Assembly (NCBI GenBank): GCA_026874595.1
Contig: CM049320.1
Location: 6,699,464 to 6,763,463 of the forward strand
Source of the DNA: Sipunculus nudus
Taxonomy: Eukaryota > Annelida > Sipuncula > Golfingiida > Sipunculidae
DNA: 64,000 nucleotides
Direction of reading: 5' to 3'
The notes beneath the pieces are model-generated. The model worked only from the letters and a program-made list of their open reading frames with translations. It ran no database searches and was not told the origin of the DNA. Below, in pieces: positions 379 to 63,013 of the stretch. The first letter of the stretch is position 1. Each line of letters begins with the position of its first letter. The translations under genes and the position numbers were made by a program.

Positions 379-510
379 TTACTCCGGGACGAAGACCTTG
401 ACATTTTTGCCAATGACTTGCACCTGATCACCGTGCAACTTTATCAAAGGTAGCAGGAAGTATAACACGTCCGCTTGGTCCGCTCCTGGCATCACAATAA
501 ACGCGTGCAC
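379..510 (-). CDS. Copy A exon 5 (terminal)
   Basis: 132 nt from acceptor TATTCAG to TAA. Encodes VHAFIVMPGADQADVL, then LPLIKLHG, ending VKVFVPE. Confidence 0.85.
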   Translation of the reverse strand: MHAFIVMPGADQADVLYFLLPLIKLHGDQVQVIGKNVKVFVPE

Positions 511-802: not shown

Positions 803-3800
803 GCACGCTATATGTTTACTTTAAACAATATACATTTTACATTTTGATTCTAAAGATTCAGAATTTCATATCCTAGATAACATAATTTGTCAAATTTTAA
901 ATCACTGTGCTATTATATACTGTTCTTGTTTTGGCACTTACATATGTCAATGTATGCAAAACTAATTAAAACCCTTAAACGTTACGGTTATTTAATAAGG
1001 GAAAACCTGACAGTTTTTTTCTACCAATACAATTCCCAAAATTATTTGAACATGATATTTACATGGCATGCTTTGTTTGATTATTGAATAGATTTTCGGG
1101 GTCATGTGCTTGCTATTAAATAAATTTTCGGGGTCATGTGCTTGCAGTATACGAAGTTAAAAAATTGATTCTTGTGGTGGGTTTTTGTATGATATTATAA
1201 CTGAGAAGGAAACAAAATTGCACGTTATAAAAAGATGACCAATAGACCATTCATAATATTTAACATAAACAAGAAGAATTTTTTTTTATCTAATTAAAAG
1301 ACAAACAAGTGTTTGTAATAGGGTAAAATTTTAAATTATCATGAACAAGTTTGGAATTCTAGAGAGTTACTAGTGAGTGAGCCGTCCACACATAAATGCC
1401 TTCTGGCGTCAACAATATGTAATCGGCCTTTAAAAGGCCAAAACTATAAGAAATAAAATATATGAGAACCTAATAAAATCGGTATACACTAATTTTCCCT
1501 TTAGAGATACACCATGAGTGTCACTTTTAATGACATATGTTCAGTTTTATCATGTTCTTCTGACTGCCAAAACTGATTCTTGACGCTGGTAGGTTACTCC
1601 ACTTGAGCATCTTCTTTTAATTATATTTAAAAATTTAGAAGTTAAAAAGTGTGACTGGTTGTTAGAGCCTGGTGCCATTTTGCCCCGCCGCAAGCCGAGC
1701 TAAGATCAAGCCGAGCCGACCCGCGTTTATCAGGAAGCGCCGCTGTTTTTTCATTAAGCCGAAGAGAGCCGATTTTGTGCAGTTCAGTTTGTTTTGAGGA
1801 AAAAAAGTAATACAAAATATATATCTTTTACTATTATAATCGCCCGAAACATAAACAAACTGACACAGTTAAACAGTCCATAAAAGCTTTTCATTCCAAC
1901 AAAATCAGACAATTGCGCGTATTCTCTGGCGAGTGCTTGGGTGGATAAAGCGGAGGCACAGGGGGCGCGCACCTCTGTTTCGACAACAGAAATGCAGGAA
2001 TTATAATAACTAACCATGTGCCGGAATTCTCAACTGGCCCCGTTTCCCTCCCTAAATTTCTGTATGCGAGAGATACATATAAAGACCATTAACCCATGTG
2101 GTATACTTATAAATGTGCCAGGGTGTTGAGCCTCTTTTCTGATATAATGTATCCTGAACATTAAGATAACGTTTACAGCTATAGGTCAGGTAGAAAATAT
2201 GGTTAAGACCATTAACCCATGTGGTATACTGATAAATGTGCCAGGGTGTTGAGCCTCTTTTCTGATATAATGTATCCTGAACATTTAGATAACGTTTACA
2301 GCTATAGGTCAGGTAGAAAATATGGTTAGCTCGAACATTCCGCAGAGCAAAGTATATGGTTCTTGTCATATTAGTTCATCGGGAAGATCCTTCATGTCGT
2401 AAGATGGTTGCTGCTATATGTCATAGACTGAAAATTCATGTCATAGGAAACATTACAGGTCATAGGTCATGCGGAAAAACCTTCATGTTATAGGTATTTT
2501 ATCATAGATCACATGTCACAGACCAAACGTTTGCGCCTCCTCGTAATAGGCCATAAGTCAGGACGTACTGCCTGTAGGTCAAAGGTAAGCTACAGTTCAT
2601 CAACTACGTCATAAACATATCATTCGAGCCATAGATCACAGGTCATAGGTCATGAGGATATATTTCATTTCCTAGGTCAAAGGTTACATTGTTTCTATTT
2701 CAGATCACAGGGCGAGTCATTAATATCATAGGTCATAAGCCAGGTCTAAGATGTCAAGGCACAGGTTTCGTCATGGGTTAGAACCTACTTTTCGGTGGCC
2801 ACGAATTGTTCTATTCGGAGGGCATAGAAGTCGTTTCTTATATGCCATTCTGATAGGTCATAACCCAGGTTATATGCTATTTTGTGCACACCAATGGCAC
2901 AGGTCAGACGGTATTCTTTCATTCAATAGGTCAAAGAGCGGGTTATATAGGTCATGAGGCAGGTTATAGTGCCAGACACTGGTCGAAGGATAGATTGCTT
3001 ACGTCATAGGTCACAGGTATGTTGGTATTAGGGCATACTTAAATAGGGTTATGGTCATTTACGTCATAGGTCACGTATGTTGGTATTAGGGCATACTTAA
3101 ATAGGGTTATGGTCATTTAGGCCATGAACGGGAAATGAATGGGTAACGTTATAGGTCATGGTCAAGTATATAGATTATATATGTCATGTAGTTCATAGGT
3201 AAGATGGAAACCCAAATGTCATACGTCACAGATCTTTCACCGATCTTGTCACAGTTCATATTGTAGGTCGCTAGGTCATAGATGTGGTTGTTAATGATAA
3301 AAAAAATGTTACGCTTTATTTATCATACCTCAGTCTTGAAGACACATTTATACAACGCCAGTTTCAGCCCTTTTTGTCTTTCTCCAAAGGCGAACGTGGT
3401 TTCCTCTCTCATAATGTCAAGATACTGGTCCACGGATTTACCTGTATTGAAAATTAAGTATAACATTACTTAAATAATTTGCTCTTCAAGGAGCGGTTGT
3501 ACATTCAATTGTCCCGGATTTCCTCAACTTTAAACCACTCCTTGTATGGCCAGATTCCCTGGGTCCCAACACAAGGGTGGGCACAAAGCAAAAATGTTGT
3601 TATCCACATCTCTGCTCTAGCTAATGTTATTACATCGGTACTGACAAAGGGCCAAGAATCAGAGCAACGAGAGCCGATGTCGCATGTTTAAACTTATTCC
3701 TTTACGAACAAGAAAGCGATGGCAGCCCGCATACTTCAGCTAGTATATCAGATTCAAACTTAAGTTGTTCATAGACGTAAGCTTAGAAAGTAAATTATCT

Positions 3801-6172
3801 AATGAGAGTTACAGTTCTTCACAAACTCAGAACAGGTTAGTACTGCCCGTCAAAACAAAGGCGGCTACAATAGTTAACAACTGTTTATTCAGTCGGGGAG
3901 AAATTTTACCTCGTTCGGAACATTTACACTCATAGGGTCCAGTTTTCATACCAGACATGTTTAATATTCATTGTTTGTATGGATTCCTTCTTACAATATC
4001 ATGGTATCTGCCAAGGTTTCCATCTAAATCCGTTTATTTACTACTCTACATCTGTTTGAATATGCTTGTACTGGGCCCTATCGATGGTTCAAAACATAGC
4101 GCGCACACCTAATGACGAATCCAGATGTTTAGGCGTCAGACCATTGTTTATTATTTCATGTTTCTTGTCTTTGTTTCACAGTTGTTACACATGGCACTTC
4201 TGATTTGGCAGTGTTGTTGTGTTGATTAAATAATTGTGCACTGTTTTTGCTCACACACAGAAAAGTGACAATGTATTAAACAGGTGAAATTTGAGATCCA
4301 TCAGCCATGACAGTTTTGCTGGAAAACGTTTCACCCAAAATGAACTAATATTGTGAGTTAATGCATATGTTTTTTTTTTTTTCAAATAATTACCCTACTA
4401 CTTGTGATGACGAATTTGACTTTGGTGTTACTCAAATGACTCCGTACATTCCATAAAATTATCATATCACAATTGATTAACAAAAATGCTACTAGACAAC
4501 CCACCTGAGACATAAACAAAATAACATCAAAAGCACCTTCTTACGGTGGTAAAATTAAAAATTAGATACCTTTATATTCTACCTTGAAATGGGCCCAGAA
4601 AACGAAGTCCCCCTCTGTTACTTTGAGGTTTGGGCCTGGGAAACACAGACTCTCGTCCACTCTCATAATGTTCTTGGCGAAGTTTTCGTACTCGTACAGA
4701 GGACAGGAGTTCACGTCAACAGACTGACCCACAGTAGAGTTTAGATCTCCTACCGCCGAGTCTGGTTTCTTTACCACTGTAATTAGAGCAAATGATGGTT
4801 ACTAGGAGTCATGATTTCTGCGTCTTATCAAGCTAATTGGTTACTTGGAAATGGTAGGACTTTTAAATAATCATTTATTTTAACATTTCATTGACTTTAA
4901 GCTTGAACCTTAAGGACGGGTTCCTTTAAGAACCTCTCGAGATTTAAAAAAAAACTTCTATGGTTCCATCTTGAACCTCTTAAGAGGTTCCTTACGGAAC
5001 ATTTTAAGGTTTTTATGGTAGACTGAGTTTGAATTCTTGAAAGGTTTTTACCGGAACCTCTTGTGTAGGGTTCTTTCCAGGTTTTACTTTTAAAAAAACA
5101 TTCTACGATGTCATACCATTCGTTTATAATATATTAATCCAAGCTGTATTACGACTGCAAGGTTTCTTGTAAAGTTACACTGACCGAACGTTTGGCTGAG
5201 ATATTTCAGGAAACAGATATTTTATACGCACGTGATATTTAAAGACCAACTGTGGTGGAATTTCAATAATGCCGGGAAAAATATCCGACTTATTATTTCG
5301 TGCGCACGAGATATATATTAAAAACAAAATTTCTTTTAATTATGTCCCTAACGGGCTCCATAATATTAGGAAACTTTTTTTTATTTTTTCATGGTGAAAG
5401 ATATTAACTCTTAACAAGAATAACTTTCAAGCGATATGATCAAACGCGAATTGTTGGTTCGACGTCCTCAAACATGAGAATTAACCTACCGTCTTAATTT
5501 TTAAGCATCGTTCTTACAAATGGACGTACCGGTCTCTCATGATTTCAAATTTCCGTCATAGTATACGGTAAAAGCAAGAATAAAAATATACGGTGGCCGG
5601 TAAGTGCCACAAAAAAATATTACGTCATGCGCACGATTAAATATCTCGTGACACAGCATAAATATCTCATGCGCATGAGTAATAAGGTGGAGCTCAGGAA
5701 TATTTTTTCGCGCGTAATAACTCGTGCGCACGACATAGTTATCTCTTGGGCGCGAATAAATTATTTCGTGCGCACAAGTTCATAAGTCGTGCCCACTACT
5801 CGGATTTGTTCTTGGGGCACTAACGAGCCACCGTGAAATAAAGCTGAAGGAAATCCATTTAAATTCTTCTTTACAAAAAGATGAATAAACACAACGATAA
5901 TCACAAACAGTATACGATCTAACTGCCTCTGACAGCGATAAAATTCAGGTTTCAGATGCATGATAATGAAAATATAAGATAAAATGATACGTCAAATATA
6001 CATCTCAGAACATGAAATGTAATTTTTAATGACTGTTGAAAATGATAGATGTCGCTAGTTTGGTTGACATTTGCATTTGCCCGTATGGTCAATCTCTAAA
6101 TTTCTTTTTATGTATGGATGGGTTAGAAAATTCTTTGTCCTTACCTGCCACAATACGGTTCTCCCCAACAAC
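379..6172 (-). CDS. Copy A: paralogue with exons 2-5, exon 1 not found
   Basis: Exons 6145-6172, 4570-4776, 3329-3441 and 379-510 have AG/GT borders and the same phases as copy B. They encode 159 residues with no internal stop and end in TAA. The poly(A) signal AATAAA lies about 30 nt beyond. Reading upstream on the minus strand I could not find a sequence like MAAF..GQEC before about 16.8 kb, and a decayed Helitron occupies 8.6-11.8 kb. Exon 1 may have been lost, may lie further away, or may have diverged. Intact splice sites and frame suggest the exons were under selection until recently. The roles suggested for copy B apply equally here. Confidence 0.65.
735..797. repeat. (TA)n microsatellite
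   Basis: About 60 bases of near-perfect TA dinucleotides in copy A intron 4. Confidence 0.95.
2082..2327. repeat. 123-bp tandem duplication
   Basis: Two nearly identical 123-bp units begin at 2082 and 2205. They differ at only a few positions, so the duplication is recent. No coding function is seen. Confidence 0.9.
2440..3290. repeat. Degenerate array rich in AGGTCA
   Basis: At least 15 exact AGGTCA hexamers on the plus strand, often as (C/T)ATAGGTCATAGG. It also holds a nearly perfect 58-60-bp pair at 3001 and 3061. It is probably a decayed satellite. AGGTCA is also the nuclear-receptor half-site. Confidence 0.75.
3329..3441 (-). CDS. Copy A exon 4
   Basis: 113 nt between AATACAG and GTATGA. 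Encodes KSVDQYLDIMREE through YKCVFKTE. One codon shorter than copy B exon 4. Confidence 0.8.
3442..4569. other. Copy A intron 3
   Basis: No exon, repeat array or element identified; a poly(T) run lies near 4370. Confidence 0.5.
4570..4776 (-). CDS. Copy A exon 3
   Basis: 207 nt between ATTACAG and GTATCT. Encodes KKPDSAV, then CPLYEYENFAK, then EGDFVFWAHFKVEYK. Gap-free alignment to copy B exon 3. Confidence 0.8.
4908..5095. repeat. GGTTCC/GGAACC palindrome cluster
   Basis: Several inverted GGTTCC...GGAACC modules lie in copy A intron 2, including a perfect 18-bp palindrome at 4973-4990. Related GGTTCC..CAAGAACC text lies at 44.66 and 44.9 kb, next to copy C. Confidence 0.65.
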
Positions 6173-6470: not shown

Positions 6471-6479
6471 TATGTATAA

Positions 6480-35329: not shown

Positions 35330-36575
35330 CAACACAGAACTCTAAACAAATACTGATTCAAAAGCCTTGTGACCCACATTAAGGGAGAGCACAAGGGTCA
35401 CTGCAAGGAAATACTACCATCACAGTTTGGTAAAGCATTTTAATTACATGTACTTAAGTAAATGCATATCAATATCATTGTTATGTGAATATGAAACTGC
35501 GCGAGGTCTTGTTTCCAGTTTATTGAAAATTCCACTTGTATTAGGGGTAAGAGTGTGACGGTAAATTGATAATGAAAAATTTAGTTGCTTGGTGTTTCAA
35601 ACATATTATAGTCACTGTGTAAAAAAAATTAGTCATAGTGTTATATTCATAAAGTTGCTCTTAATTAAGAATAACGTATTCCTTAATAATGTTGAGTATG
35701 AATATATTATTATTCACATGAACAGTTTGTTATATTCCTAAAGTTACTATCATTAACAATAAGGTATAACTTAATTATTTTGAGTAAAATATTTTATTAT
35801 TCACAGGAACAGTAAATTCAATAGTGCTAACCAGGTGGTATATATGTTTTCGATACTGTTACATATTTAAAGGTTAACATGTCACTGCATTCCTTATATA
35901 TTATTGTAAAATAGTTCTTAAATAATCATACAAATTAAGAAAGTGGCCAGATATAGTCATTTTATTCATCAGAATTAGCACATAGGCCAGAGCTCTAGTT
36001 GCTAGTTAGGAGTGGTCCCTTCACATAGTTATGTAATGTCACTGAAGGTGTAAAGGTCCACAGGGGGCAAAGAGTAAGTAGTGTCGCGCACCGGGTAGGG
36101 ATTAGCTTGCACATCTTCATCTAGTAAATAAGGGGAGACACCTTGAAAATTATAGTTAAGTTGTATTAATGCATCAAGGAAATGTTTGTATTGCATGTGG
36201 GATTTCTGCAGCCTGTCATATTGACTTAATGAATTGTTGTTGCTAACTGTACAGCAAAGGCCTATGTATCCCATACCCTTATTTGTATTAATCCCTCAGT
36301 AATAAGATGCTGTCCATTAGATGGGTAACCCCTGATTGGTCAAAGGATAAATCTGTAGCTATAATGTTAAAATTAGTGATAGTAGCAGTCAGTTGTTTCT
36401 GGGTGGTGAAGCTGAGCGCACGCAACCTCTAACTGTAATATACAATAAATTTTAGTGTGTTTTACACTATTCGCCGTGTGAGACCTCTGTTTGAGTGCCA
36501 ACTGGTGTGTTTTGGAGAGTGCACGTGAGAGACCGCTTCTACTGGTCATGACTTCCCGCCCAGTAAGGCGCTTTA
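35330..36575. repeat. Long direct repeat 1 (LTR-like)
   Basis: Starts CAGAACTCTAAACAAATACTG and ends CCAGTAAGGCGCTT. It matches 41945-43246 closely, except that the second copy has an extra block of about 80 bases near 42157. The length, the purine-rich tract AAGGGAGAGCACAAGGG and the GC-rich end fit an LTR. A sequence like TGGTATGAGC follows at 36595 and could be a primer-binding site. Confidence 0.75.
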
Positions 36576-36787
36576 GAACAAACTCTGAAATTTCTGGTAT
36601 GAGCATTTGGAAGAATCAATTTAATTTTTTTGATTGTCTGGAACAATAAGTAGATCATGTTTAATGATTCCTGGTCATTTTAATACCTTTTCCCCTTCAT
36701 AACTATCTGTTGAATGTCCATTATTCAAATTGCATGTGTCCTTTGATAATAATCAGGTCTTCATATATCTTAAAGACAGCTTAATGC

Positions 36788-40750: not shown

Positions 40751-40759
40751 GACAAGACA

Positions 40760-41950
40760 AACAAGGTCACCAATTCGTTGATAGAGCCCTCGTTCTGATG
40801 AGGACCTACTGCTACTGGCCAGGTATGGACAAGGTAATCAGAACCTATAAAGCCCAGTGTGAATCAGATTTAATTCGTGTAGAGGGCAAAGTAAAGACCT
40901 TATTCAGTACTATTGAGCCAACTTCTCCACTGAAAGTGTTTGAAATAGACTTTTCTCTTTTAAAAAAAAAAGGCTACAAAGGGTATGAAAAATGTATTTG
41001 TCATGATCACACATTCCATAATTGGATAGTTGCTGTACCTACGAGAGATAAACCTCCTAAAACAGTTTGAAGAATCTTAGTACAAAATAGTTCTTTACTT
41101 TTGCTACACCTACAGGTCTACACTATACCCAAGGCAGATACTTTTATAAAGTCAAATAATAAAACAACGTTGTCCCCTTTATAGTCCAATGAAAATAAAA
41201 CAAAAGCATATCCCCTCAGTCGAACAGATATTGTGGAAGGTTTATAACAATGATCCGCTAAGAACGTTACCTATACAAACAAACCGATGTTGGCCTGAAT
41301 ACCTCACAGAGATGGCCTATGCTTATAATAATACACCCAGCACAAGCACAGGTATTTCGCCGTTCTACTTCCTGTATTGAAGAGACAAAAAACTTCCATT
41401 GCCAGCCTTCTTGCTCTAGGTAAGGATTCTCCATCAAACAGTTTACCATAGCGGGTAGCTAGTCACCAGAGGAGGTTATAATATGTGAACCAGATGTTAA
41501 GGAAACATCTTGCTCAAGATGTAGAAAAACTAAACCTTTATGGAGACAAATCAGCCGATTATTTTAATTCTATTTTGGACAGAGTGTGTATTAAAGAGAA
41601 AAAGGTTTCCAGGGACACGATAAAAATTCAAAACGCTAAATTGTGAAGTGAAGTTTATAAAATGGTTGATACAATGGTTGAAAGAGATGTTAGTCAGACC
41701 AGTTTGGAACTTTTAAAACGGTCAACGTATGGGAACTGAAAGTATCTCCTATTAACTCCTCAACAAAACCAAAACGACTTATAATCTCAACCAAACCAGA
41801 ACAACGAACGACACCTAGAAAACATAGAGCTCCATCTACCAGCTCAAGTCAGAGTCAATAACTATGTACCTATCATTCAGCACTAATCGAGATAGTTCTT
41901 TCTCTAATGACCCCGGTCACTCTAACACAAATACTCCTAATTCAGAACTC
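40760..41950 (+). mobile_element. Ty3/Gypsy integrase remnant
   Basis: The frame 40798-41070 begins RTYCYWPGMDK, the zinc-finger end typical of Gypsy integrases, followed by VFEIDFSLL, the first strand of the catalytic core. Frame 41189-41380 ends AYNNTPSTSTGISPF, the usual core end. The coding region finishes near 41951 (reading TNTPNSEL then stop), just before direct repeat 2. Stops and frameshifts make it inactive. Confidence 0.8.
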
Positions 41951-43246
41951 TAAACAAATACTGATTCAAAAGCCTTGTGAACCACATTAAGGGAGAGCAC
42001 AAGGGTCACTGAAAGGAAATACTACCATCACAGTTTGGTAAAGCATTTTAATTACATGTACTTTAGCAAATGCATATCAATATCATTGTTATGTGAATAT
42101 GAAACTGCGCGAGGTCTTGTTTCCAGTTAATTGAAAATTCCACTTGTATTAGGGGTACCCAATACATATGTTATATTCGTTTTATTACTCAGGGAATGGT
42201 TAGTAATGGTTAACGTGGATAAGAGTGTGACGGTAAATTGATAATTTAGTTGCTTGGTGTTTCAAACATATTATATTCACTGTGTAAAAAAAATTGGTCA
42301 TAGTGTTATATTCATAAAGTTGCTCGTAATTAACAATAAGGTATTCCTTAATAATATTGAGTATGAATATATTATTATTCACATGAACAGTTTGTTATAT
42401 TCATAAAGTTACTATCATTAACAATAAGGTATCACATAATTATTTTGAGTAAAATATTTTATTATTCACAGAAACAGTAAATTCAATAGTGCTAACCAGG
42501 TGGTATATATATTTCTGATACTGTTACATATTTGAAGGTTAACATGTCACTGCATTCCTTATATATTATTGTAATATAGTTCTTAAATAATCATACAAAT
42601 TAAGAATAGGTGTGGCCAGATATAGTCATTTTATTCATCAGAATTAGCACATAGGCCAGAGCTCTAGTTGCTAGTTAGGAGTGGCCCCTTCACATAGTTA
42701 TGTAATGTCACTGAAGGTGTAAAGGTCCACAGGGGGCAAAGAGTCAGTAGTGTCGCGCACCGGCTAGGGAATAGCTTGCACATCTTCATCTAGTAAGTAA
42801 GGAGAGACACCTTAAAGATTATAGTTAAGTTGTATTAATGCATCAAGGGTATGTTTGTATTGCATGTGGGATTTCTGCAGCCTGTCATATTGACTTAATG
42901 AATTGTTGTTGTGAACTGTACAGCAATGGCCTATGTATCCCATACCCTTATTTGTATTAATCCCTCAGTAATAAGATGCTGTCCATAAGATGGGTAACCC
43001 CTGATTGGTCAAAAGATAAATCTGTAGCTATAATGTTAAAATTAGTGATAGTAGCAGTCAGTTGTTTCTGGGTGGTGAAGCTGAGCGCACGCAACCTCCA
43101 ACTGTAATATACAATAGATTTTAGTGTGTTTTACACTATTCGCCGTGTGAGACCTCTGTTTGAGTGCCAACTGGTGTGTTTTGGAGAGTGCACGTGAGAG
43201 ACCGCTTCAACTGGTCATGACTTCCCGCCCAGTAAGGCGCTTAAGA
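41945..43246. repeat. Long direct repeat 2 (LTR-like)
   Basis: Second copy of the 35330-36575 sequence, placed directly after the integrase end as a 3' LTR would be. Confidence 0.75.
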
Positions 43247-44437: not shown

Positions 44438-44569
44438 ATGGCGGCGTTCAGCGGACAGGAGTGTATTTGTCTGTTAGATATCAGCACTGTACAGGGCTGT
44501 ACTGATGCTGACGATATTTTATACAGGGCTGCCAAGGTGGTACAACCTCACAGCTCCTACGTGTTCAAG
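44438..44569 (+). CDS. Copy C exon 1
   Basis: 132 nt, 44 codons, same length and start as copy B exon 1. Splice donor AAG/GTAAGC. Acceptor-like CAG before 44415. Confidence 0.75.
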
Positions 44570-44985
44570 GTAAGCGACTCTCTCCTCTCTACAAAGAATA
44601 TTGCAGGGTCGAAATGGGTCCTGCAAAATAGTTTCCCCGTTAGTACACTTTTTAAGAAAAGGTTCCTTCAAGAACCCGCATTATTTCATCTTGGCCATGG
44701 TCCCTTTTGAAACACTCTTCACTGTGTAAAGGATGCATTTCCATTTGACGATATTTTATACAGGGCTGCCAAGGTGGTACAACCTCACAGCTCCTTCGTG
44801 TTCAAGGTAAGCGACTCGATCTATAAAAGAATTTTGCATGGTCAAAATTGGTCCCGCAAAATAGTTTCCCCGTTAGTACACTCTTTAAGGAAAGGTTCCT
44901 TCAAGAACCCACATTATTTCATCTTGGCCATGGTCCCTTTTGAAACACTTCACTGTGTAAAGGTTGTATTTCCATTTGGCACTCT
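44511..44985. repeat. 237-bp tandem duplication covering the exon 1 end
   Basis: The unit at 44511-44747 is repeated at 44748-44985. It duplicates the last 59 nt of exon 1, its donor and following intron. The second copy reads YRAAKVVQPHSSFVFK followed by GTAAGC. Confidence 0.9.
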
Positions 44986-46977: not shown

Positions 46978-47006
<29 letters not shown>

Positions 47007-47892
47007 TTATTTCGGTGTATTTCACGTACGCGTCGACGCAAGACAGGAACAGTGGTGTATTTATAGGTACGCGGCGACGCAAGCTTTAATAGAAACAACC
47101 CTTTTCCGACCTTGCGTCCATGCCAATGGTTTATCATGAAACAAACCAAAGAAAGTCATTATCAATCAAACGAAATTATCTCAAAACCGATAAAAGAGAC
47201 TGAAGTTATTTATAAGAATTATGAAACTGGATCTAAGGGCACTGGTTTTGGCCATATTTTTAACAATATCTAAACTGTAGGTTGTGGGGGAGTACCGAAT
47301 TGTGGCAGGTAAGGACAAAGAATTTTCTAACCTATCCATACATAAAAAGATATTTAGAGATTGACCATACGGGCAAATGCAAATATCAACCAAACTAGCG
47401 ACATCTGTCATTTTCAACAGTCCATATAAATTACATTTCATGATGTATATTAATGTATCATTTTATCTTATATTTTCATTATCATGCATCTGAAACCTAA
47501 ATTTTATCGCTGTCAGAGACAGTTAAATCATATACTGTTTGTGGTTATGGTTGTGTTTATTCCTCTTTTTGTAAGGACAATTTTAATGGACTTCCTTCAG
47601 CTTATTTTCACGGTAGCTCGTTAGTGCCACAAGAACAAATCCGAGTAGTGGGCACGACTTATGAACTCGTGCGCACGAAGCAATAAATTCTCGCCAACGA
47701 GATAACTATGTCGTGCGCACGAGTTATTACGTACCATTTGAAAAAAATATTGATTCCTGAGCTCGACCTTATAACTCATGCGCATGAGATAATTATGCTG
47801 TGCACACGAGATATTAAATCGTGCGCATGACGTAATATTTTTTTTCCTTGTGGCACTTACCGCCTACCGTATATTTTCATTCTTGCTTTTAC
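46978..47892. repeat. Inverted repeat, arm 2
   Basis: Reverse complement of 5567-6470, with copy C exon 2. A (TA)n tract marks its left end, as it marks the right end of arm 1. The match stops at ATTCTTGCTTTTACC. Confidence 0.9.
47281..47308 (+). CDS. Copy C exon 2, 28-nt microexon
   Basis: Lies between CTGTAG and GTAAGG and encodes VVGEYRIVA plus one base. Same length and phase as the other two copies, opposite strand to copy A. Confidence 0.65.
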
Positions 47893-47899
47893 CTGTACT

Positions 47900-50947: not shown

Positions 50948-51079
50948 TCATTGTTTGCCGAAGACCTTGACATTCTTAACTGTGGCATGTATATTTTCCC
51001 CATTCTTCCTCAGCATAGGCAACGTGAAGGAAAGAGCGTCAAGCTGATCGGCGCTGTCCATCACGAAGAACGCTTGTAC
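50948..51079 (-). CDS. Copy B exon 5 (terminal)
   Basis: 132 nt from acceptor TTTTTCAG to TGA. It encodes VQAFFVMDSADQLDAL, then LPMLRKNG and a last strand ending VKVFGKQ. Same length as copy A exon 5. I saw no canonical AATAAA in the first 200 bases after the stop. Confidence 0.85.
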   Translation of the reverse strand, partial: VQAFFVMDSADQLDALSFTLPMLRKNGENIHATVKNVKVFGKQ

Positions 51080-54000
51080 CTGAAAAATATATAATAGTGT
51101 TATTGAGTTGGTTGTAATTACCTTTGTACATCAGATATGTGTAGTTAGCGGTTGAACGCGAATTGGAAGGTTGACGTCTCAGGTTGTCCCTCCACCTGTT
51201 TTGTCGCGATTATTTTTTATTGAGCGTTTTGACGCAATGGTTAGAGCAATGGATTAAGTGACTGCAACGCTCTGCGTTCGAATCCCGATCAGACCAATTT
51301 CCTCGCTAAGACTCCTGACAAAAAGTAGTGACCGAGTACTGGTCATGCACAGCTAGCAGGCTAAATGTAAAATGGATAACTCTATTGAGTCTATGGAGGC
51401 GTGGGTTAGGGTATATTCTCCTCAGGGAGCTGAGAAGATAAAAAAAAGGAAGAGGTACTTGACCAGGAAGCAAAAGTGTGAAGTTGGATGACTCTCAGGT
51501 AGTGATTTAAGATAATAATCGTTTTTCTCATCAAAGAGTAGAAGTTTAATTGTCTCCACTCGTATGTATGTTTATCCGTTTCTTTACAAAATGTCTGACG
51601 CAATCATGAACGGAATCTCGTGATATTTTCACGGTATTTAGGGAATATGCCAACGAAGAATCGATTGGATTTTGGTATGTATCCGGCACATGATAACCTT
51701 TCAGCAACGTCATCAAGGAATATTCTTTAAGGTAACTTAACAAAATATATGTACCTCTGTAGGATTCCATTCCGGTTTTGGACTACGTGACAAGGTAGTA
51801 TCACATGCTTTCGCTCATTCTTTATCCGGGTCTTAACCAGGCCCGGAGACTACTGCACCTACGGGCCCTTTGTGCTTATTTGTCACCGCTGCTGTGTCAT
51901 ACCACCGATGATCCCCCGAAAGGCGCACTTGTTTGTAAGTGAAACACGGCCATTGGGCACGGCCTTCTCATTAAGCCTGCAGAGTGCTCACCCTGGGTGG
52001 GGGCCGACCGTGAAAAACTCAGATTCGAACTCACGATCTCCTGGCTTTGAGTCCTGTACTCTACCCCTGAGCCATAGAAGCCGCTTGCCATCAAGAAATA
52101 TATATATAAAAAAGAAAGTGACATTTTCACAAATGAACCTGGTAATATGGGTCGTATAAGTGAATGCTTAGTCGATGGCAAGAGATTCATTTGCTTCCTC
52201 CCTGTCACGATGCCTGTCACCGGAATGGAATTCTGCTGATGTACATAGTACCTAGATAAGCCAGCATTAAAAATGGATGCGGTTACCTCCATCAAAGATG
52301 AAAAAAATGTTCATATGAAAAGGGTAAAGATTTGATTCAGAGACCGCTATTTAGATCATTTGGTTTCCAGACTGCTGTAGTTAGTGTTAGAAACAATAAC
52401 ACCATTTAAATCACTCACATTTAAAGAGGCAGAGAGAGAACGCTTGATACGCGCGGTATGCATCATTGCAATGATATTGGCTATGATTTTTATCCCCGTG
52501 CTCTGCTAATTCTTCATCCTGTTTGAGACCAAGTTAATCTTAATAAAGATCTGTAATTAAAGTGATTTTGTAATAGAAGTGATTCAAATACAGCTTTTAT
52601 ATATGTTTCACCGTTGCATTGGCCCTATTCACTATATGTAATTTTGATGCAAGTGTAACCGTGGACATTTAAGTTAATGGTGATAATAAGAGAAATAATT
52701 ATTTTGAAGCAAAAGAGGGAAATGATAAGTATCAGAGTTCAAGAAAAAATATATACATAATCATCCCCGGTATCAAGCGTGTAGGGCCAGAAAATTTTAT
52801 TGCGAAAAGTTTATTTGGGTCCTATTCGGGAGGGCGTATGTGCGTGTCATACATTAAATGAACCGTCCTCTGATAAAACAAGAGGTGGATAATTTCCTCT
52901 TTCTCTTAAATAATTTTTACATTTTCTGTATTCTGATCGAAATGAAAACGTTTTTCCCACATTGAACCAATCATTGTATAAAAGAGCAGTGCAACCAGAA
53001 ATAGAATTGATTGCCTCTCAGACTGTTTGATGTAAGCTGTCTATTCCTACCTCTCGCTGGAAGACACCTTTATACACCACGAGCCCAAAGTTTCCTTCTT
53101 GCCTCGATCCCAGGGCCGCCATTGCTTCATCTTTCCATAGAGCAAGTAGTTCTTCTGTTGTTTTACCTGATATGTAAAAGAAATGAAAATATACTTTCTG
53201 CAATTTATTAATGGTGAATTTACAATCGCGTATATAGTTTCTGATAAATACAGAGTAAACATGACCGCGGTATTTATTTCAAAATTAATTTATTTCAGTT
53301 ACATCTATTATTAACAACTGCATATAGATATTACAGTAAAGGTCTGAAATTCTTTCTAAATATAAATTGATGGCAGTTTTCTTAAGAATCCACCTGTTTT
53401 AAGCTAGAAAGATTGCCTCTTCAGTGTTGCTGTTCGATCCCTGATTTAAGGATCCAGCGTGTTCCGGCGTGGTGACAAGATGACGGTGCAATTCGTTTGA
53501 AGATTGAAGTCGACTTTTGGAAGATTGTTCGGTTTTCTGACATTTATATTAATTTTTCATTAAACAAGACAACGATGGCTGTGTACACACGCAGGCTGTA
53601 CTTCTACTCAGTTGTATGTTAAATAGTAAGGTTACGGGGGTACTACATATCACATTTTACATATACATAAATGCGTACAACATATACGAACAACTGAATT
53701 ACGTGTAGCTTATAAATAAAAAAAGTAACCTTCATCCTATTTATTTTTTGTTACTTTGGAAATATTTTCTCCGATTGCATGTTAAATAAGGAGAATTCTG
53801 AAATTCTACATGGTGACAACCCATCCAACGCCTCTGTAATTTCCTTTTCTGGACCTCTAACATGACAAGTCTTACGTCACTCACACGATTTTCACCAATG
53901 ACCATCCGTGGTTATCGTTCTTATTAATTGGTAAGCTGTGGCGACCAGGGGAAAATCCACGGCTATATCCGTGTTCATCTTCAGCCCTACGCTCCCGAGG

Positions 54001-55340
54001 CAGCATAAATCTTGCGCTTCTAAAAAAGCTACCGATTTCCCCGTTGGCTGCTTTGACAGTTGATGATGCACTTTAACACCAGCTCGCCTGTCTGCTGAAA
54101 AGAAAATCTGCTAATGTGTCTAGCAGCCAACCAAATGCCAGTCAACAATCACTCGACAGACATCAGACTCGACCCATAAACAACGTGGTTGGCCATTCTC
54201 TCTGAGCCTGTGGCCTGTTCAAACGGTTGCCGGGGCGATGAGCTGTCACTCAAAACGAAATGTACAACATTAGCATAGTGTATTCCTCGTTTGGCTGGTA
54301 AACCGTTTTGTCTTCCAGCACAGAGTCTCATCTGATTGTACCAAAATACAGTACTCCCCTCTGGTGTAGAGATTCAGGATACGAGGTCATAACAAACTGT
54401 CACAGCGCTTACGGTATGGGTAGTAGGCCTATAGGTAAAGCGCTGTGTAAAGGGCGTACTTCAGTACACCATGAGCCAGTCCAGAGAACGATAGCGATAC
54501 TATTGTCACTTGGCCTCACGAAAACTGCTTATTGATTAACCATTCAATACATGAGTATGTTGGTTGCTGTAGTCTGTCCTGACCGAACTCCGTCAATTAA
54601 GTTTGGATGTGTAGGGTCGCGGGACCTTAGCTAGACATAGCTAAAGTCTTCGCGATCGTGAGAATCTGTAGTATTACCGTGAATGGCCCACTTAAGAAAT
54701 TCCCAACCGTCACAAACCGCATTTGCTCCGCCACCATCCTAAATGTGGTCCAATTGAATCCCTTGTATGCGTTCATCTTTTAGGACTGAAACAGCATCAA
54801 AGCCATGTCGATGCCTTCGAGGACGGATGCAATCAATCCAAATTAGCACTTTCGCTTTAATACTCAAACATGAGAACTTTTCCTAATACCATGACTCCAT
54901 TAAAAAGTACCTTTCCCTCCGTACCCTGATGTTTGACGTTGTTACTTCAGGAACGTAGCAAGATATTTTACCAAAGAGATTGACTTAATATGAATTATAG
55001 CATTAAATCATGCATCGTATACTGAATTTAAACCAAACAAAATAAACAAAATTAAAAAAAAATAAATTCAAAACTTACCAGTGTAATTCACTGTAGCATG
55101 CAACCAAAACACAAAGTCCTTTTCCGTGACCTGAAGCTCTGGTGTGTCGCCATATACACTTGTGTCTACTTCTAAAACACCCTTTGCAAAGTTTTCATAT
55201 TTGTACATAGGGGTACAGGTGACTTCAAGGTAGCCTGTTATGGAAGGGTTGAGCATTCTGAGAGCCGAGTCTGGACTGTTTACCACTGAGAAACGACACA
55301 CATGAAAAATTTAGAAAATAATGAATATTTAATATATATA

Positions 55341-55380
<40 letters not shown>

Positions 55381-55704
55381 CACAACAGTAATGTTTTTGT
55401 AGGTGAGGATGGTTAGACGATCATAAGTACCGAGAAGAGGAATGGTAATTCAACCTAACGGGGTCAGGAGGATGCTAGGCATTAATATTAACATTTAAAT
55501 GAAAGTATGAGGAACACAAACTGATGCGTGGGTCAAATTTGTTTGATACATAAAATGGAAAATAACTCTAACTTACAGAACCCCTCGGGAAGACAATGGA
55601 ATTATGGTTTAACAATCCAATCCTCTTGTGGTTTTCTACGTGCAAGCTAGATCTTATCTTGCTGTGGTGAATGTCAACCAAGTTATTGCTGCTTAGGTGC
55701 TGCA

Positions 55705-55737
<33 letters not shown>

Positions 55738-56092
55738 GCAGCTGGTTCTCACTCGCCGGCTGGCTTGTTGAGAAAATATACACAGTGAGGAAGCCTGCAT
55801 GTCAGCTTACAGCGTATGCCAACACAACATGGTACCGCCACATGCATTAAATACTGATCAGCATTTCAATACACTGTACACTGCTCCTGTGATTATGCCG
55901 TATTTACCCCTTAAAGCTTTACCATAATATAATGGAAGTATTTTGGTCCTCTTTTCCCTTTAAGTTTACCATCGATAATTTGAACAAGAAAGAATTCAAC
56001 AACAGGAATGTACATCTCGTTGCCTAAATAATGGATAAAATGTATACCATTAAATGACATTTGACATACAGCAGAGCAAATTATGCTATAAC

Positions 56093-56124
<32 letters not shown>

Positions 56125-59100
56125 AATATGGCTCTCCTACCAATTAATAAGGAAGAAGTCTGATGATCATGGCGTCACAAGGTCAAAGCTCAAGGCCACA
56201 GGGGTCATCTGCCCAAACATTTGTTTCTAGGTAATAATATCATTTATGAATGGCATATAAGCTTTAAACTTTACCTATACATGGCCCAACATTATTATAT
56301 GAACTGTGCACGTTTTAGTCTTCGGATTAAAGTTAAAGGTCAAAGAGCCCACTTCTGTGTTGGTATGACCTATAACTTATGTAAGAACCATATTGATTTT
56401 CGGGTCATGAGGTCAGAGGTGAAGGTCATATGACCCACAAAGATTGTTAATGCATTTTAAGTCTTTTCATTACAAACCTTCTATCTTCCACACGTGGGTC
56501 TCCTGTCAATTATTTTCAAACACAAGGTAAAAGGTCAAGGACACAGGACCATTACACGTAATTATAACCAGACTTACAGTAAAATATATCAGATGTAATT
56601 ATGCCTCTATTGCTAGTGATGCTCCACCTCTATATATTTATAAACAACTGTCACTGATTCAAACTTAAACATATTTCTTTGTTGTTTAAATATTGATTGG
56701 AATCCGTTGTTTCTCTCTCAGCATGTAATTAGATTTATTATATTTACGTTTATTATATTTTTTTCAAGCTTCAATCAGTCCCTATTTGATGTCTATGGGC
56801 CTTTTCCGCAACTAGTAAATGTATACATAACACATGACGGCGCCGCAGCTGGAATATACATACCGGATTTTCAATGTTAGTATGATACCTTTAATTTTTG
56901 GAAGATTAATCCTGTAAATAAAGATGTTTAAAAAAAAGGCGGGTGATCATTCTTGTGAAGTAGATAATTCTCTGGAATTCGGACTTGTGAAAAAAATTGT
57001 CTTGGCCGTGGAATACATCTTGTTCTTTTATTTCTGGTATATCGCCCATTCTCAATGTGTTTATATTTTCTGAGCCATTTTAGTACTGGAAACGAGTGTC
57101 TGTGGTTTGAAGTGCCTGTAATGTGTTTTAGTGCACGCTCCGGCGGCAGTGCTGGGATAGGTTTGTGTGGAGCGTGAGCGATGCATGGTGTGTCTGGCAG
57201 AAGCTGATACATTACAAAAGTTTTTTTTTTACAGTACAAGCGTGTCGAACACAGTTTCCCCAGTAACGAATCGCATACAGTATTCGATACACTTGGCTTT
57301 CATACAGGACAAAAAAAAAATTTACTTCTGATAATAAAATCTGTATGCGCAAAAACTTTCTTCCTAATGTGTGTTAAATGCGGAAACTATTCAAGACGAA
57401 CACATTGGATGCTTGTTCACACTGCGTTGATGAATTAATGAATTCTGTTTCGATGTGGTTTCAACATGCGGATCAAAACGCAAATGAATAAGGGTGTGGT
57501 GTGAATAGAAAGTGGATTTGGGGGCAATAAAACGGTATATCGATACGATTCTTGCTTTAACTCCAGTTTGCATAAATGCTATTTTATTTCCTCTCTCATT
57601 GTATAAATTTTTTCTATCAAATTTACAAATATGTTCGTACATAAGATCTATTTCTGTTTATGATCAGCGTTAAGAGAAAAATAGAATTTCTAACCTGCCA
57701 CCAATCGATTTTCTCCGACCACCTGCAACAAATAAACACAACATAAACGGTTTTGTCTGTCTGTAACAAAGAATTAATAAACGGAGTGAAGGTTATTAAG
57801 CCATCACAAAGACTTTTCATCCCAACGTCCGGACGCACTGCCCAATGACGGAGGCGTATAAGTTTTATTCAAATATGTGTGGAGTTTTAATATCCTTTTT
57901 TGGGTGGAGGTAACCCTCCCAATTTTTGCGGTTTTTTAATTCCGTGAGGGTGGTCATTGAGAAAAGCCGAACTGTCTTCGGACTGCGTCTTCGCTCGGCG
58001 ATCTGGAAATGTTCACAACACATGCGTTATACATAATTAACCTCCACGCCAGGATTAAGTTCTATTGTGCATATGAATAACCCCTGCTGTCAATGACAAA
58101 GCTAAGCATGTTTGGGCTAACATTTGACCAAGCAACTGACCCACTTGCATGGTTAATAAATGGGAGAAAACATGTGCCTTTCAATCCCTCGGCCCTCATT
58201 TCTTATGTCAGCATGCCATACTGAGTAATCCTCTAATTCATCCAGGTAATCGTTTTGCATAATGTTAAAATGACCACAACAATTGTCGCTGCAGTCTCAC
58301 CTTGCATTAACATCTTCAACGATTCTGTAAACAGATGTATCACGTTAACTATCCCAGAAAGCAAGTTTATAAGTTACTGTTCATATTTACAATACCGCCT
58401 TATGGATATTAAACAGCAAAATATATCCACAGGTTTATCATATATTAAATATATATTCACAGAAAAATACCTGCTATTGGATATAATTGGCACGGATGTT
58501 GTCAATGCAGACTTTATATTAGCTCCACTTAATTTTGTAATACACGCTTCCCAGGCAAAAAAATTCGATTGATGCGCGATATCGGTGACGTGGCGGTGTT
58601 AATGTATACAACAAAACCACGTGCTAACAGGTTTAAGAACGTGTATGGTAAATGGGTGTTATGCAGGGATGACATTCTTGTCCAGGTGGTTCGCCATGTT
58701 TGTTTACAGTGATTGCACTGTTGCAGCAATTTAGGTCATTGTCAGTCAAGGCCACTGAAGTAGCGTGCTAGGTGAAGAACCAATTGCAGGAGCCTATCAT
58801 TTCCATAAATATAGCTTGACCCTGTGCGGAGGTAAGTGACACAATGTCAACAAGGACATAACCCGGACGATAACCAGTGAGAAACAAGGCTCCGTTACGC
58901 TGGCCTTCAATCAAGATTACATGAATTGACTCCGTTTACTTACCTTCGTGATTTTTCATTTGAAAAACATAATTGATAGTTCGTATAAAATACATTATTC
59001 CTTATGAAGAGTTTTATTAAAACCTTAAATACACCATTTAGTGAAAAAAACGCCCACATAATTCATAATGTTCAGTTTCTTTTACATCTACCTTCTACCT

Positions 59101-62100
59101 ACTGACAACAGGTGTCGACTGAAGTGTCAGATCACCGCACACCGCCTAAATGAATGGTAGACCTACTAACCAGGTATGCATATCCCGTTTCTTTCTTCAA
59201 GAACTGCTTCCTTGCCTTAAAACATACATTAAATTCATATTTCCTTTCTTCCATGAATCTATCTATATTTTATACGTCGATCAATAATATATAACCATTG
59301 TAAAATCTTCGAAATCTGAATGCTCTCGCGTCTCATTCCTGTTCGCTGCTGTAAACATCATTCCTTACCAGTTCTTCAAGGTAAACATATAATGTGTGAA
59401 TTGCTTACCACAGACACGGCGTCACAAAATAAAGGTAAAAAGTACAATTATAATTTATTGAGACAGTATTCCGCTGAAAATCCACATTTATTTTAACATC
59501 TAGACTAAAAACATGAATTTCCGAACTTTCAGGAGTTGTATTGAATTTCCGGAATGTTATTAGTCAATTTCTTCTACAAAAGAAGTATATCGGCGTTCCC
59601 CCAGGTATCGAATTTGATATCGCCGTTGTGAATATGCCCCCATAATTTACATTCATAAAAAAAAAACCTAAAAATGGACGATCGCCACGTGTTGGCGCTC
59701 ACTAATCGTTCGTTTCACTCCTACCTGCGCCTGAGGGCTGGTGTCAGATGAAAAAGCAAATATTGGTAAACATATACCCGAATTGGTAACCACGGTTACA
59801 GTGACGACAAGTCGTGTAATTTGTTATTTCAACTCATTTGCATTGCCCGAGACGACACTTTACCGAATATTGTCGACAAGCTACAAGCTGCAAAATAATG
59901 AGGCCTTACAGAAAATGTAAATTATCAAGGTGTAGGACAATTTTGAACGGTCTCGTATCAGTTAAGGTCTTATGATAGTCAAAAATTGTGAAATTGACAT
60001 TTTTGTGTAAAACCATGACCTTATAGTTGTTTCCTATATCTATCTTGTCAGAAAAACACGATAATAATATTAATTGGATATTAGCTGCATCCGTGGGAAA
60101 TCCACGGCTCTGACTGATGCTAATTTTTTTTTGTAATGAGCTAATAGGAACTAAAAGATGCATATTTTAATCCTAAGGTTTTTGCAGAAAATTTTTGTCA
60201 TGTGTTTCACTTATATGATATAAAGATTACTTCTGCTAAAAATCTCCAGGAACACCCTCCCCCAAATATCAACATAGAAAGAAAAAGTATTCTATTCCAG
60301 AAATTACGCAAAAAAAAAAAAAAATTTGGAAAGAGACGTGAGGCATATACAGGGTGTACGGATTTTTAAGTGAGATCCCACCCCCCCCCCCCCCACGGTC
60401 TTAACAGTCCAATGAAAATCCCCGAGGCGCATCCTGAAAAAGCGTCGCAGGCGTCGAGGACCTTGCAGCACAAAAGATATAGGGGGACCTGATGGGGAAA
60501 TATTAGAAATATTAATTATTCAGCTTAATAGTGCATAACCCCGCAAAATAAAACAAACTTGTCCTAGAAGAGCACACCACCGATACGTCTGCCGAACTTG
60601 GAGAGTCCAATAAATAAGGAAGCAGGTAAACCGTGGTCGAGAAACCCAACTCCGTATAAATTATATAGAAATTCAGATGTTAACCCCACGTGGAGTGCAA
60701 ACAGGACCGTCTGTTGGCTCGGCGAGAGCTAGCATCGTATCAATTGCTTATTGGTTTACCATGCACTCGCGGTGTTAGGCAAATGGTTGATTGACAGGCA
60801 TGCAGTGGGAGCGGTGTGCGGTTAGTCAGCCGGGAATGATTATTTTCTATATTACCGGCACTTGCTATTTGGCACTAATTGATATAAACACCACCCCCGG
60901 TACTCCAAACCCAGAAATAATATTGTCTATGTCGCTGCCCCGAAATAAGTTAGTGTTACGGTACCAAGAAATATGAATTTACCGATTGTTATTTCTCTTA
61001 TAATACATGGCCAAAACCAATACCGAATACATCGTTGCTTTTTCTATTATATACACTATCTTCAAACTGAACGTCATGGGTCGAAGAAAAAAGAGTAGAA
61101 CAAGCGAAGGTACAATTCACAATCGATACCTCACATACTGCCTGATCACCAAGTTCCGGTGTTATTAAAAAAATTACAGAGAGATGACCATTCCGAGTCG
61201 TCAATTGACGAAAACACAGTAACAATAAAACAGGGAGTTCAAGAATTAATAATCTACTCTCTGTGACAGTGGGGCAAACTTGCTATGTTGTTGGCTACGG
61301 CAGCTGTCTGTGCCATATGCCATGAATGGAATTTGTCGTTAGTAGAGGATGGAGACAAACGCCGAGGGTGGTGTAGCAATATGGGACTGCGTTGCACGAA
61401 GAATTTTGTTAGAGGAACGCGGCACCAACTTACACTACTAGTCGCCCGTTAACATGTTTTGCGAAGCGAACCACGCCGGAGCCTTAGCTATAAGAGCGAT
61501 CGGTAAAGGAAGAGCGACCGCAGCACGATTTAGCGCGGTTATGCACATTCCTCCTCCCCTTTTACCCAATAGCTGGTGATAAAGAGGGAGAAAGAGAGAG
61601 AGAGAGAGATGTGTTGCTGCTAGCTATGAAGTGTCTCGTGTATAATTGGGAGAGACAAGCTGTTAACTTGATCAGGGTATATGGTAGTCTTAATGAGAGT
61701 AAAAAGATTAATTTATTCCAATCAGTCACTTTACACCTGACGCCTACACCGGCGTGGCAGCCCATGACCTGATGACCAACCGTCCGACCAGTAAGCTCCG
61801 CCTACTTCAGTTTGACAGTTCTCCAGTTGTCATTTTGCCTAAAAATTTCGTCTTTTTTACATAGAAAAACTATTAAATTTTATCATTTATATTTTTAATA
61901 ACAATTCACATCGGAACATTCAGTAAAAATATACGACGGTCACTTGCGGTTATACCCCTGTTTTCCACTCAAAACGAAATTTCTCTTCCAAAGGAGTTTG
62001 TTTTGCCGTTTTCTCAAAACATTATTTAAGGAGACTTCAGAGCGATATTTCTAAAAAAACATCGAATATAGGCTTTTCAAAGTTGCATATAGGTTAATCA

Positions 62101-63013
62101 ACATGTATTCTAAAATGCGTTTTTTTTTCTTTTTTTTTTTATTCGATATCGTGTTCAGTGTAGTAATCATACGTTATTTAAACAAAAGAAGTATTGTTTA
62201 TATCCAACTTTTTTTTTTAAATTTAAAATTCAATATGAAAAAAGACTATACATATATAATAAAAAACTGCCTAGAGATGTCTGTATGAAATTTTCACACA
62301 CGTACCCTAAGCCAAATTTTAGATATATCGAATTATAAAAAATTAAATCAATTCATGTTTCAATTGTCAAAGTGGACACTGTTACATTGATTATATATAT
62401 CTCATCTGATTTTTCTAAGGATTCTTAATATATATATACATCACTGTGGCTAAATTATTATTAATATGAACTTTAAAGCTAAATTAAACCAAGGTTGTTT
62501 GACGATCATAAGACCTTACAAGCTGGGCTAAGCCCGGGATTTGAAAATCTACTCTTTCATGTTTGAAATGTTAATTAGCCGGTCATTGTCGACTGTGTTT
62601 AACAAAAGATTAAAGGACTCGTGAAACTTGGACCTGGCCGCCGTCACCCCAGTACATTATAACAATTCTAAGTATATGGACGGTGTTAAGTTTGTTTCAT
62701 GTAAGTCCGTCCGAATCCGAAACTCGAGTTTTCGTTAAAATGAAGCCAATTCTAACTTGACTTGTTCGGTCCCTACAGATTTGTTCGTAACTCAAGTCTT
62801 CCATTGAAACGGACCCCGTTTTAATGAGACCAGACTGTACTGGGAATGCACACTGATGCACTGATGACAGAATGTAGTTACCTTGAATACGTAAGAGCTG
62901 ACGGGCTGTATCAGCTTAGCTGCCTGGTCTATTACAGTCCCTGTATCCGCACATCCCTTCACAGTGTGTATGTCCAGAAGGCCAAGGCATTCTTGACCAC
63001 GGAAGGCGGCCAT
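50948..63013 (-). CDS. Copy B: complete five-exon gene, two-unit ferredoxin-like (muconolactone isomerase-like) protein
   Basis: Exons 62882-63013, 57695-57722, 55079-55285, 53051-53166 and 50948-51079 all have AG/GT borders. They join with phases 0, 1, 1, 0 into 204 residues ending in TGA. The ATG has A at -3 and G at +4, and 22 nt upstream is a splice-acceptor-like site, so a 5' UTR intron is likely. Residues about 7-90 and 105-204 look like two copies of a beta-alpha-beta fold. Each has a strand, a helix, then a hydrophobic strand followed by SPDSAL (first) or SADQLDAL (second). The second unit (FVFWLHATVNYTG, KDEAMAALGSRQEG, FFVMDSADQLDAL) matches the layout of bacterial muconolactone isomerase and related dimeric alpha/beta-barrel proteins. 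I see no signal peptide or membrane segment, so it is probably cytosolic. The enzymatic role is unknown, and the catabolic function of the bacterial enzyme should not be transferred. I do not recognise a named animal gene. Confidence 0.8.
51225..51400 (+). mobile_element. tRNA-like SINE, second type
   Basis: Reads GCAATGGTTAGAGCAATGG and, about 30 bases on, CTGCGTTCGAATCCCGATC, A-box and B-box-like, with no matched acceptor stem. Lies in copy B intron 4. Confidence 0.6.
51780..52090 (-). mobile_element. tRNA-derived SINE, copy 3
   Basis: The minus strand reads TATGGCTCAGGGGTAGAG and GTGAGTTCGAATCTGAG, then TTTTTCACGGTCGGCCCCCA, as in the 45.1-kb copy. A plus-strand tail of the same family lies beside it at 52207-52296. 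Located in copy B intron 4. Confidence 0.8.
53051..53166 (-). CDS. Copy B exon 4
   Basis: 116 nt between acceptor ATATCAG and donor GTAGGA. It completes a glycine codon, then encodes the helix and second strand of unit 2 (KTTEELLALWKDEAM through VVYKGVFQRE). It is one codon longer than the copy A exon and stays in frame. Confidence 0.85.
53167..55078. other. Copy B intron 3
   Basis: No repeat array or exon recognised; unique sequence with a GC-richer stretch at 53.9-54.5 kb. Confidence 0.5.
55079..55285 (-). CDS. Copy B exon 3
   Basis: 207 nt between acceptor TTTCTCAG and donor GTAAGT. It completes a valine codon from exon 2 and encodes the junction of the two units: SPDSAL, then YKYENFAK, then KDFVFWLHATVNYT. 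The copy A exon has the same length, and about 31 of 66 aligned residues are identical by eye. YENFAK and DFVFW are the best conserved stretches. Confidence 0.85.
55332..55377. repeat. (TA)n microsatellite
   Basis: TA-rich tract in copy B intron 2. Confidence 0.9.
55706..55735. repeat. Poly(A) tract
   Basis: Homopolymer of about 30 A, with no adjoining retroelement seen. Confidence 0.9.
56165..56540. repeat. Degenerate AGGTCA-rich block in copy B intron 2
   Basis: Reads AAGGTCAAAG, AAAGGTCAAAGAG, GAGGTCAGAGG, AAGGTCATATGACC and AAAAGGTCAAGG within about 375 bases. The theme is the one seen in copy A intron 4, with different spacing. Confidence 0.6.
57695..57722 (-). CDS. Copy B exon 2, 28-nt microexon
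   Basis: Lies between acceptor TTGCAG and donor GTTAGA and encodes VVGENRLVA plus one base of the next codon. Two further copies with identical length and phase occur at 6145-6172 and 47281-47308. Its reading frame joins exon 1 and exon 3 exactly, which makes a chance match very unlikely. Confidence 0.8.
57723..62881. other. Copy B intron 1
   Basis: 5.2 kb. Holds the second copy of the 29-kb dispersed repeat, poly(A)/poly(C) runs near 60310 and 60380, and a GA run near 61590. No additional exon seen. Confidence 0.55.
59973..61775. repeat. Dispersed repeat, copy 2
   Basis: Colinear with 29045-30055 but longer, with an extra roughly 630 bp after the first block. Shared parts include GTGAAATTGACATTTTTGTG, GGCTCGGCGAGAG, GTCAGCCGGGAATGATTATT and the CCTGACGCC..CCGGCGTGGCAGCC end. 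Confidence 0.7.
62882..63013 (-). CDS. Copy B exon 1 (start codon)
   Basis: 132 nt, 44 codons, begins MAAFRGQECLGLLDI and ends SSYVFK followed by donor GTAACT. It matches copy C exon 1 over its full length without gaps. An AG acceptor just before 63035 leaves a 22-nt leader. Copy C has 23 nt in the same place, which supports a shared 5' UTR intron. Confidence 0.85.

Follow-up and report, generated by a model that had tools for sequence, protein, structure and literature searches.

A tandem gene family in Sipunculus nudus predicted to encode two-unit relatives of bacterial muconolactone isomerase-type proteins

The muconolactone isomerase family (Pfam PF02426) is known from bacterial aromatic degradation and includes CatC (PDB 1mli), in which we take Glu27 to be the catalytic residue, and the 5-chloromuconolactone dehalogenase ClcF (3znj, 4fpi); the family profile also matches in Sulfolobus acidocaldarius, an archaeon. 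Members of the family are described as homodecamers, and barrels that arose by duplication and fusion are known in HmoB and OxdA (PMC4835899). Here, we describe gene A, which lies on a 64,000-nucleotide (nt) stretch of the Sipunculus nudus genome (contig CM049320.1, in our numbering C15:6699464-6763463; hereafter the window), the whole genome comprising 1.43 Gb in 153 contigs. Gene A is a real five-exon gene and an intact member of a tandem family, and both halves of its predicted protein are, with high probability, homologous to a bacterial group within PF02426, so that the muconolactone isomerase family would also include a multiplied set of intron-rich genes in a eukaryote with a genome of 1.4 Gb.

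The spliced coding sequence of gene A runs from ATG to TGA over 615 nt and encodes 204 amino acids, with GT and AG at 4/4 introns and compatible phases. Since the paralogues share the same exons, the five exons with correct splice borders and the 204 residues of the initial annotation are borne out. For exon 2, of 28 nt, the interval from exon 1 to exon 3 offers 254 open candidates; the one adopted ranks top among them by a simple splice-site score and is independently confirmed by the recurrence of the mini-exon, of the form VVGE(N/Y)R(L/F/I)(V/M)A, in seven further copies, B to H. The protein can be divided in unit 1 (approximately residues 1-94) and unit 2 (approximately residues 107-204). 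The locus had been taken for a single, undescribed-looking gene; the gene stands, but as a member of a tandem family rather than a lone gene. Across the whole genome, at least 37 matches to exons of the family were obtained at E ≤ 0.001, every one of them within 0.42 Mb (C15:6.549-6.966 Mb), and about two thirds of the letters of C15:6.515-7.003 Mb were examined (167,137 of 488,000 positions unread). Four more complete paralogues, namely E, F, G and H, encode 204, 204, 204 and 203 amino acids, respectively, with GT/AG at all introns and exons of 132/28/207/116/132 nt, exon 4 of H being 113 nt and thus one codon shorter; intron lengths across the five complete genes range from 532 to 5939 nt. 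The gene A protein is 64, 66, 66, 52 and 48% identical to E, F, G, H and the partial copy B, respectively.

The complete paralogues are under purifying selection. The selection test was carried out on the five complete genes (A, E, F, G and H) together with exons 2-5 of B, and the paralogue alignment excluded fragment C, copy I and isolated exons, as well as copy D because of its defects. The ratio of nonsynonymous to synonymous divergence (dN/dS) was 0.097-0.341 in 13 of the 15 pairs, dS not being computable for E-H and G-H, and dS exceeded 1 in 8 of the 13 measurable pairs. Between A and G, 46, 26 and 90 differences fall on codon positions 1, 2 and 3, respectively, and their intron 1 sequences could not be aligned over the initial 600 nt. 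When the units were compared separately, dN/dS was 0.29 (A-G) and 0.33 (A-F) for unit 2 versus 0.12 and 0.13 for unit 1, these being the only pairs, among five tried, in which both values could be computed.

The relationship to PF02426 was established through bacterial intermediates. A search with the PF02426 profile in 299 genomes from the phylum of Paucimonas sp. (G001) matched 29 genomes and returned 30 loci, including L137 (genome G227), a member of the family at 62.6 bits (E 4e-17), which was picked by eye among the 30 loci for its resemblance to both halves of the gene A protein; four loci just above the PF02426 cut-off (L138-L141) and four below it (L142-L145) were not used. Cylindrospermopsis curvispora carries on a plasmid a gene (L156, WP_096545470.1, annotated as 'muconolactone Delta-isomerase family protein') that is 57.8% identical to L137. 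Hidden Markov models (HMMs) of the two units were built from the six paralogue rows, with E-values given for a set of 20,005 sequences and 4000 shuffles for each comparison. The unit 2 HMM matched L137 with 52.4 bits (E 6.1e-14) and the Cylindrospermopsis protein with 49.4 bits (E 5.1e-13), and the unit 1 HMM matched them with 26.8 bits (E 4.7e-6) and 22.9 bits (E 7.7e-5), respectively, with 0/4000 shuffles as high in each case. In hhalign comparisons with four L137-type rows, unit 2 reached 98.7% (E 2.8e-16) and unit 1 95.8% (E 6.7e-9), while the L137 group in turn reached 98.3% (E 1.1e-14) against CatC, all these E-values applying to single comparisons; for both units against the L137 group, 0/100 column shuffles scored as high and reversed profiles gave noise. 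As both units match the L137 group, and the group matches CatC, the resemblance is best read as homology, and the gene model together with the homology of both units to this bacterial PF02426 group is, on these comparisons, very probably correct. At the level of identity, unit 2 is approximately 30% identical to L137. The muconolactone isomerase-like character assigned to the C-terminal half by the initial annotation hence persists, by way of the L137 group, but its restriction to that half does not, and the proposal that only the C-terminal half is of this type is rejected, given that the unit 1 HMM matches L137 as well.

Because L137 was chosen by eye, the wide plasmid and own-genome searches matter here. 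When 72,556 plasmids (7.3 Gb) were searched with paralogue G at E ≤ 1, the sole record retrieved was the Cylindrospermopsis PF02426-type gene (E 5e-4), and when the S. nudus genome was searched in full with L137 at the same threshold, four candidates were scored and a sole match emerged, an exon 5 of the cluster; weak on its own (E 0.77), it nevertheless falls within a 0.4-Mb section of 1.43 Gb. Among 398 genomes from the phylum of L137's own genome, ten were matched by L137, including its own; the other nine were matched weakly, with E-values of 1.5e-5 to 7e-4, and a strong CatC match is present in six of these nine genomes. No second close relative of L137 was found among the 398 genomes, the close one being the Cylindrospermopsis plasmid gene. 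For the comparison with CatC, 19 rows were used, consisting of 17 of 21 CatC-like loci, 1mli and ClcF, with 80 close Pseudomonas loci left out. A tree of five unit-2, four L137-type and six of the 19 CatC rows separates CatC from the others; being rooted at its midpoint and containing two very long branches, it was not relied on.

The direct profile match to the barrel clan that the initial annotation had put forward as a check, and without which by its own terms the claim would fall, was not obtained at a significant level: Pfam returned 0 families at E ≤ 10 for the gene A protein, searched whole and as both halves, and hhalign to CatC stayed at chance. PF02426 was likewise absent from the Pfam results for the six paralogue rows, one of which gave one unrelated weak match, and neither gene A nor any of the six rows exceeded the curated PF02426 cut-off of 26.7 bits. 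NCBIfam gave no significant match for gene A or paralogue G, and in particular none to TIGR03221, on which L137 itself reached only 40.3 bits (equivalog cut-off, 130.6 bits). Searches of the PDB by sequence and by profile retrieved nothing significant, at most unrelated weak matches. No relative was found among 9 and 6 pattern matches in IMG/VR scans with gene A and L137, respectively, or among 257 pattern matches in a scan of genome contigs with the paralogue alignment, and the phage records held no match to L137.

Several of the results weigh against reading the protein as two PF02426-related units. HMM scores for a direct comparison with CatC were below zero, with 3190 and 2062 of 4000 shuffles as high, hhalign to CatC gave 0.5% for unit 2 and 0.3% for unit 1, and 18/100 (unit 2) and 37/100 (unit 1) column shuffles scored as high. 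The PF02426 profile found no match in the S. nudus genome at E ≤ 1. Unit 1 and unit 2 resemble each other directly at chance level only, by both blastp and hhalign, and their intron positions do not coincide when compared by eye, so that no exon-level trace of an internal duplication is left. Unit 1 is matched over part of its length (residues ~41-90 by HMM and 26-92 by hhalign), its first part being unmatched. Finally, just two of the four L137-type proteins match well: the Streptomyces protein is weaker (17.8 and 13.7 bits, 0/4000 shuffles each) and the Rhodococcus protein is at noise level (8.6 and 6.5 bits, 0 and 1 of 4000 shuffles), and the relationship therefore rests on two good bacterial sequences.

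The L137-type proteins are the closest known relatives. Their homology to unit 2 spans almost the full domain and includes the Glu27 equivalent; in unit 1 it covers the second half, where the shared features are a Lys followed by a VVGE-like turn and, towards the domain's end, a Tyr, which the best relatives have as part of YEDF. They consist of a single domain of approximately 100 amino acids in an uninterrupted frame, whereas gene A encodes two domains, is split by four introns and has a unit 1 that lacks the Glu. CatC and ClcF belong to the same Pfam family by way of the L137 group and share the Glu27 column, but show no direct similarity to the gene A family above chance and differ from it at the Tyr50 column. 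The gene A protein would thus be composed of two fused PF02426-related domains, each expected to adopt a ferredoxin-like beta-alpha-beta-beta-alpha-beta fold, and the two units would pack together within one chain to yield the alpha+beta barrel that single-domain relatives obtain by pairing. We regard such a fused single-chain barrel, or pseudo-dimer, as likely, the homology leading by way of L137 to a family whose structure is known. With two ferredoxin-like units per chain, it would have the same architecture as HmoB and OxdA, which belong to other families of the superfamily.

At the column of CatC Glu27, a Glu is found in 19/19 CatC, 4/4 L137-type and 6/6 unit-2 rows, the residue in gene A being E136. 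In the five copies that include this part of unit 1, the column is occupied by a hydrophobic residue and a Glu is missing throughout residues 25-31; the alignment is less sure there. Since the Glu is invariant in unit 2 and replaced by a hydrophobic residue in unit 1, unit 2 may hold the working pocket, with unit 1 being structural. CatC Tyr50 is kept in 19/19 CatC rows, while the four L137-type proteins have R, H, K and H at this position, and unit 2, counted by eye, has R in 5/6 rows and T in B. As the column is not kept, the substrate should differ from that of CatC, and, judged from its sequence, the gene A protein is not CatC itself; a role as muconolactone isomerase, or in the bacterial beta-ketoadipate pathway, is not supported. 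The N-terminus has no obvious hydrophobic signal by eye, which suggests a soluble cytosolic enzyme. Of the possible chemistries, the most likely would be a proton transfer by the Glu, in an isomerisation, lyase or cyclisation reaction, with a small compound resembling a lactone or enone as substrate, a suggestion that we consider tentative and rather doubtful, and the growth in tandem copies would fit dietary, defensive or xenobiotic metabolites. Among the bacterial relatives, L137 adjoins a VOC/glyoxalase gene on the same strand, which fits small-molecule metabolism, and an AraC-type regulator is encoded nearby; the Rhodococcus gene with the noise-level match is surrounded by genes for thiolase, AMP-binding, enoyl-CoA hydratase and SDR proteins, and the Cylindrospermopsis gene has no telling neighbours.

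Taken as a whole, a homologous two-unit barrel enzyme with one active unit is the explanation that we favour, with moderate confidence. The same fold and ancestry could also belong to a non-catalytic protein that binds or carries small molecules and whose copies diversify for ligand range, which would agree with the R, H, K and H at the Tyr50 column of the L137-type proteins, with a family that is duplicated and locally rearranged, and with the higher dN/dS of unit 2 in both computable pairs. The invariance of the Glu27 equivalent in all six unit-2 copies and 23 bacterial rows speaks against a mere binding role, and we consider it unlikely, if well worth keeping in mind. A resemblance by convergence or chance, in a ferredoxin-like protein of other ancestry, would explain why the direct comparison with CatC and that of unit 1 with unit 2 both end at chance, but it appears highly improbable in the face of the shuffle controls for the L137 group (0/4000 and 0/100 column shuffles) and the sole plasmid match in 7.3 Gb.

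In the searches made, which among eukaryotes covered the S. nudus genome, the nearest relatives came from bacteria, including one encoded on a plasmid of a cyanobacterium, which would suit a horizontal transfer from a bacterium, for example a cyanobacterium, followed by fusion and expansion. The four introns, the 48-66% identity of A to its paralogues, dS above 1 in 8/13 pairs and the approximately 30% identity of unit 2 to L137 argue for age, however, and make a transfer improbable. A decaying cluster without function is suggested by several damaged copies: B and C are fragments, in copy D the usual acceptor of exon 3 is missing and the frame of exon 5 is broken, two stops interrupt a copy of exon 4 at C15:6668606, and stops occur in 6/37 exon matches, although two of the six belong to the complete genes G and H, whose exon 3 is overrun by the match. 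With five complete open copies and purifying selection between them, decay of the whole cluster is nevertheless very hard to credit. For the favoured two-unit enzyme, it is conceivable, though we would not expect it, that the cluster represents an undescribed enzyme family, in which two muconolactone isomerase-type domains were fused, one site was kept and the other lost, and a tandem array came to serve a metabolite class new to this fold in animals.

The domain family is known; what is new is its occurrence as a fused pair of domains, in tandemly arrayed genes of a eukaryote, which is missed by Pfam and NCBIfam. Searches of the open-access literature, judged by title and opening of the abstract, turned up no description of such a eukaryotic muconolactone isomerase-like gene, subscription journals and eukaryotic protein databases being outside the scope, hence predicted members may well be deposited unnamed. 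E136 and the bacterial relatives provide concrete handles on activity and origin. The exons of gene A and of the partial copies in the window, B and C, both found by tblastn of the gene A protein, are listed in Table 1.

Table 1. Exons of gene A and of partial copies B and C, in window positions.
Feature	Position	Strand	Basis
Gene A exon 1 (amino acids 1-44; start of unit 1)	62882..63013	-	Shared with paralogues E, F, G, H and fragment C
Gene A exon 2, 28 nt (VVGENRLVA)	57695..57722	-	Same mini-exon in copies B to H
Gene A exon 3 (remainder of unit 1, linker and first part of unit 2)	55079..55285	-	Splice model and paralogues
Gene A exon 4 (unit 2; E136 aligned to CatC Glu27)	53051..53166	-	Splice model, paralogues, CatC alignment
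Gene A exon 5 (last part of unit 2, with the stop codon)	50948..51079	-	Splice model and paralogues
Paralogue B exon 2	6145..6172	-	Sequence match to gene A
Paralogue B exon 3	4570..4776	-	tblastn of gene A
Paralogue B exon 4	3329..3441	-	tblastn of gene A
Paralogue B exon 5 and stop	379..510	-	tblastn of gene A
Fragment C exon 1 (MAAFSGQECICLLD...), GT directly after	44438..44569	+	tblastn of gene A
Fragment C exon 1, partial second copy	44747..44806	+	Local duplication 44509-44747 vs 44746-44978, 92%
Fragment C exon 2 (VVGEYRIVA)	47281..47308	+	Sequence match

No exon 1 of B was found by tblastn on the minus strand of the window, and no exons 3-5 of C were found downstream of its exon 2 on the plus strand. 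With exon 1 missing from B and exons 3-5 missing from C within the window, one gene may have been split into the two by an inversion between 0.9-kb repeats. The window contains a 0.9-kb inverted repeat (5567-6478 and 46978-47893, 91% identical), which holds exon 2 of B on the minus and of C on the plus strand. A B-type exon 5 with identical protein sequence is present in four copies within C15:6657951-6699973 (at 6657951, 6663179, 6682764 and 6699845, the last corresponding to window positions 382-510), which points to very recent local duplication.

Apart from the cluster, Rfam returned 0 families in the window, and an apparently intronless GT10 fucosyltransferase lies at 16748-18007 on the plus strand, as an open frame of 419 codons from stop to stop (PF00852, E 5.7e-53; PF17039, E 4.2e-24). 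At 15612-16277 there is a repeat array, whose copies are about 70% alike, spaced near multiples of 38-39 nt and partly open in two frames. A direct repeat of approximately 1.2 kb (35335-36577 and 41943-43246, 95-98% identity) may be either a mobile element or the product of recent duplication, and an integrase zinc-binding fragment at 40753-41070 on the plus strand (PF17921, E 9e-7) is probably the remnant of a retroelement.

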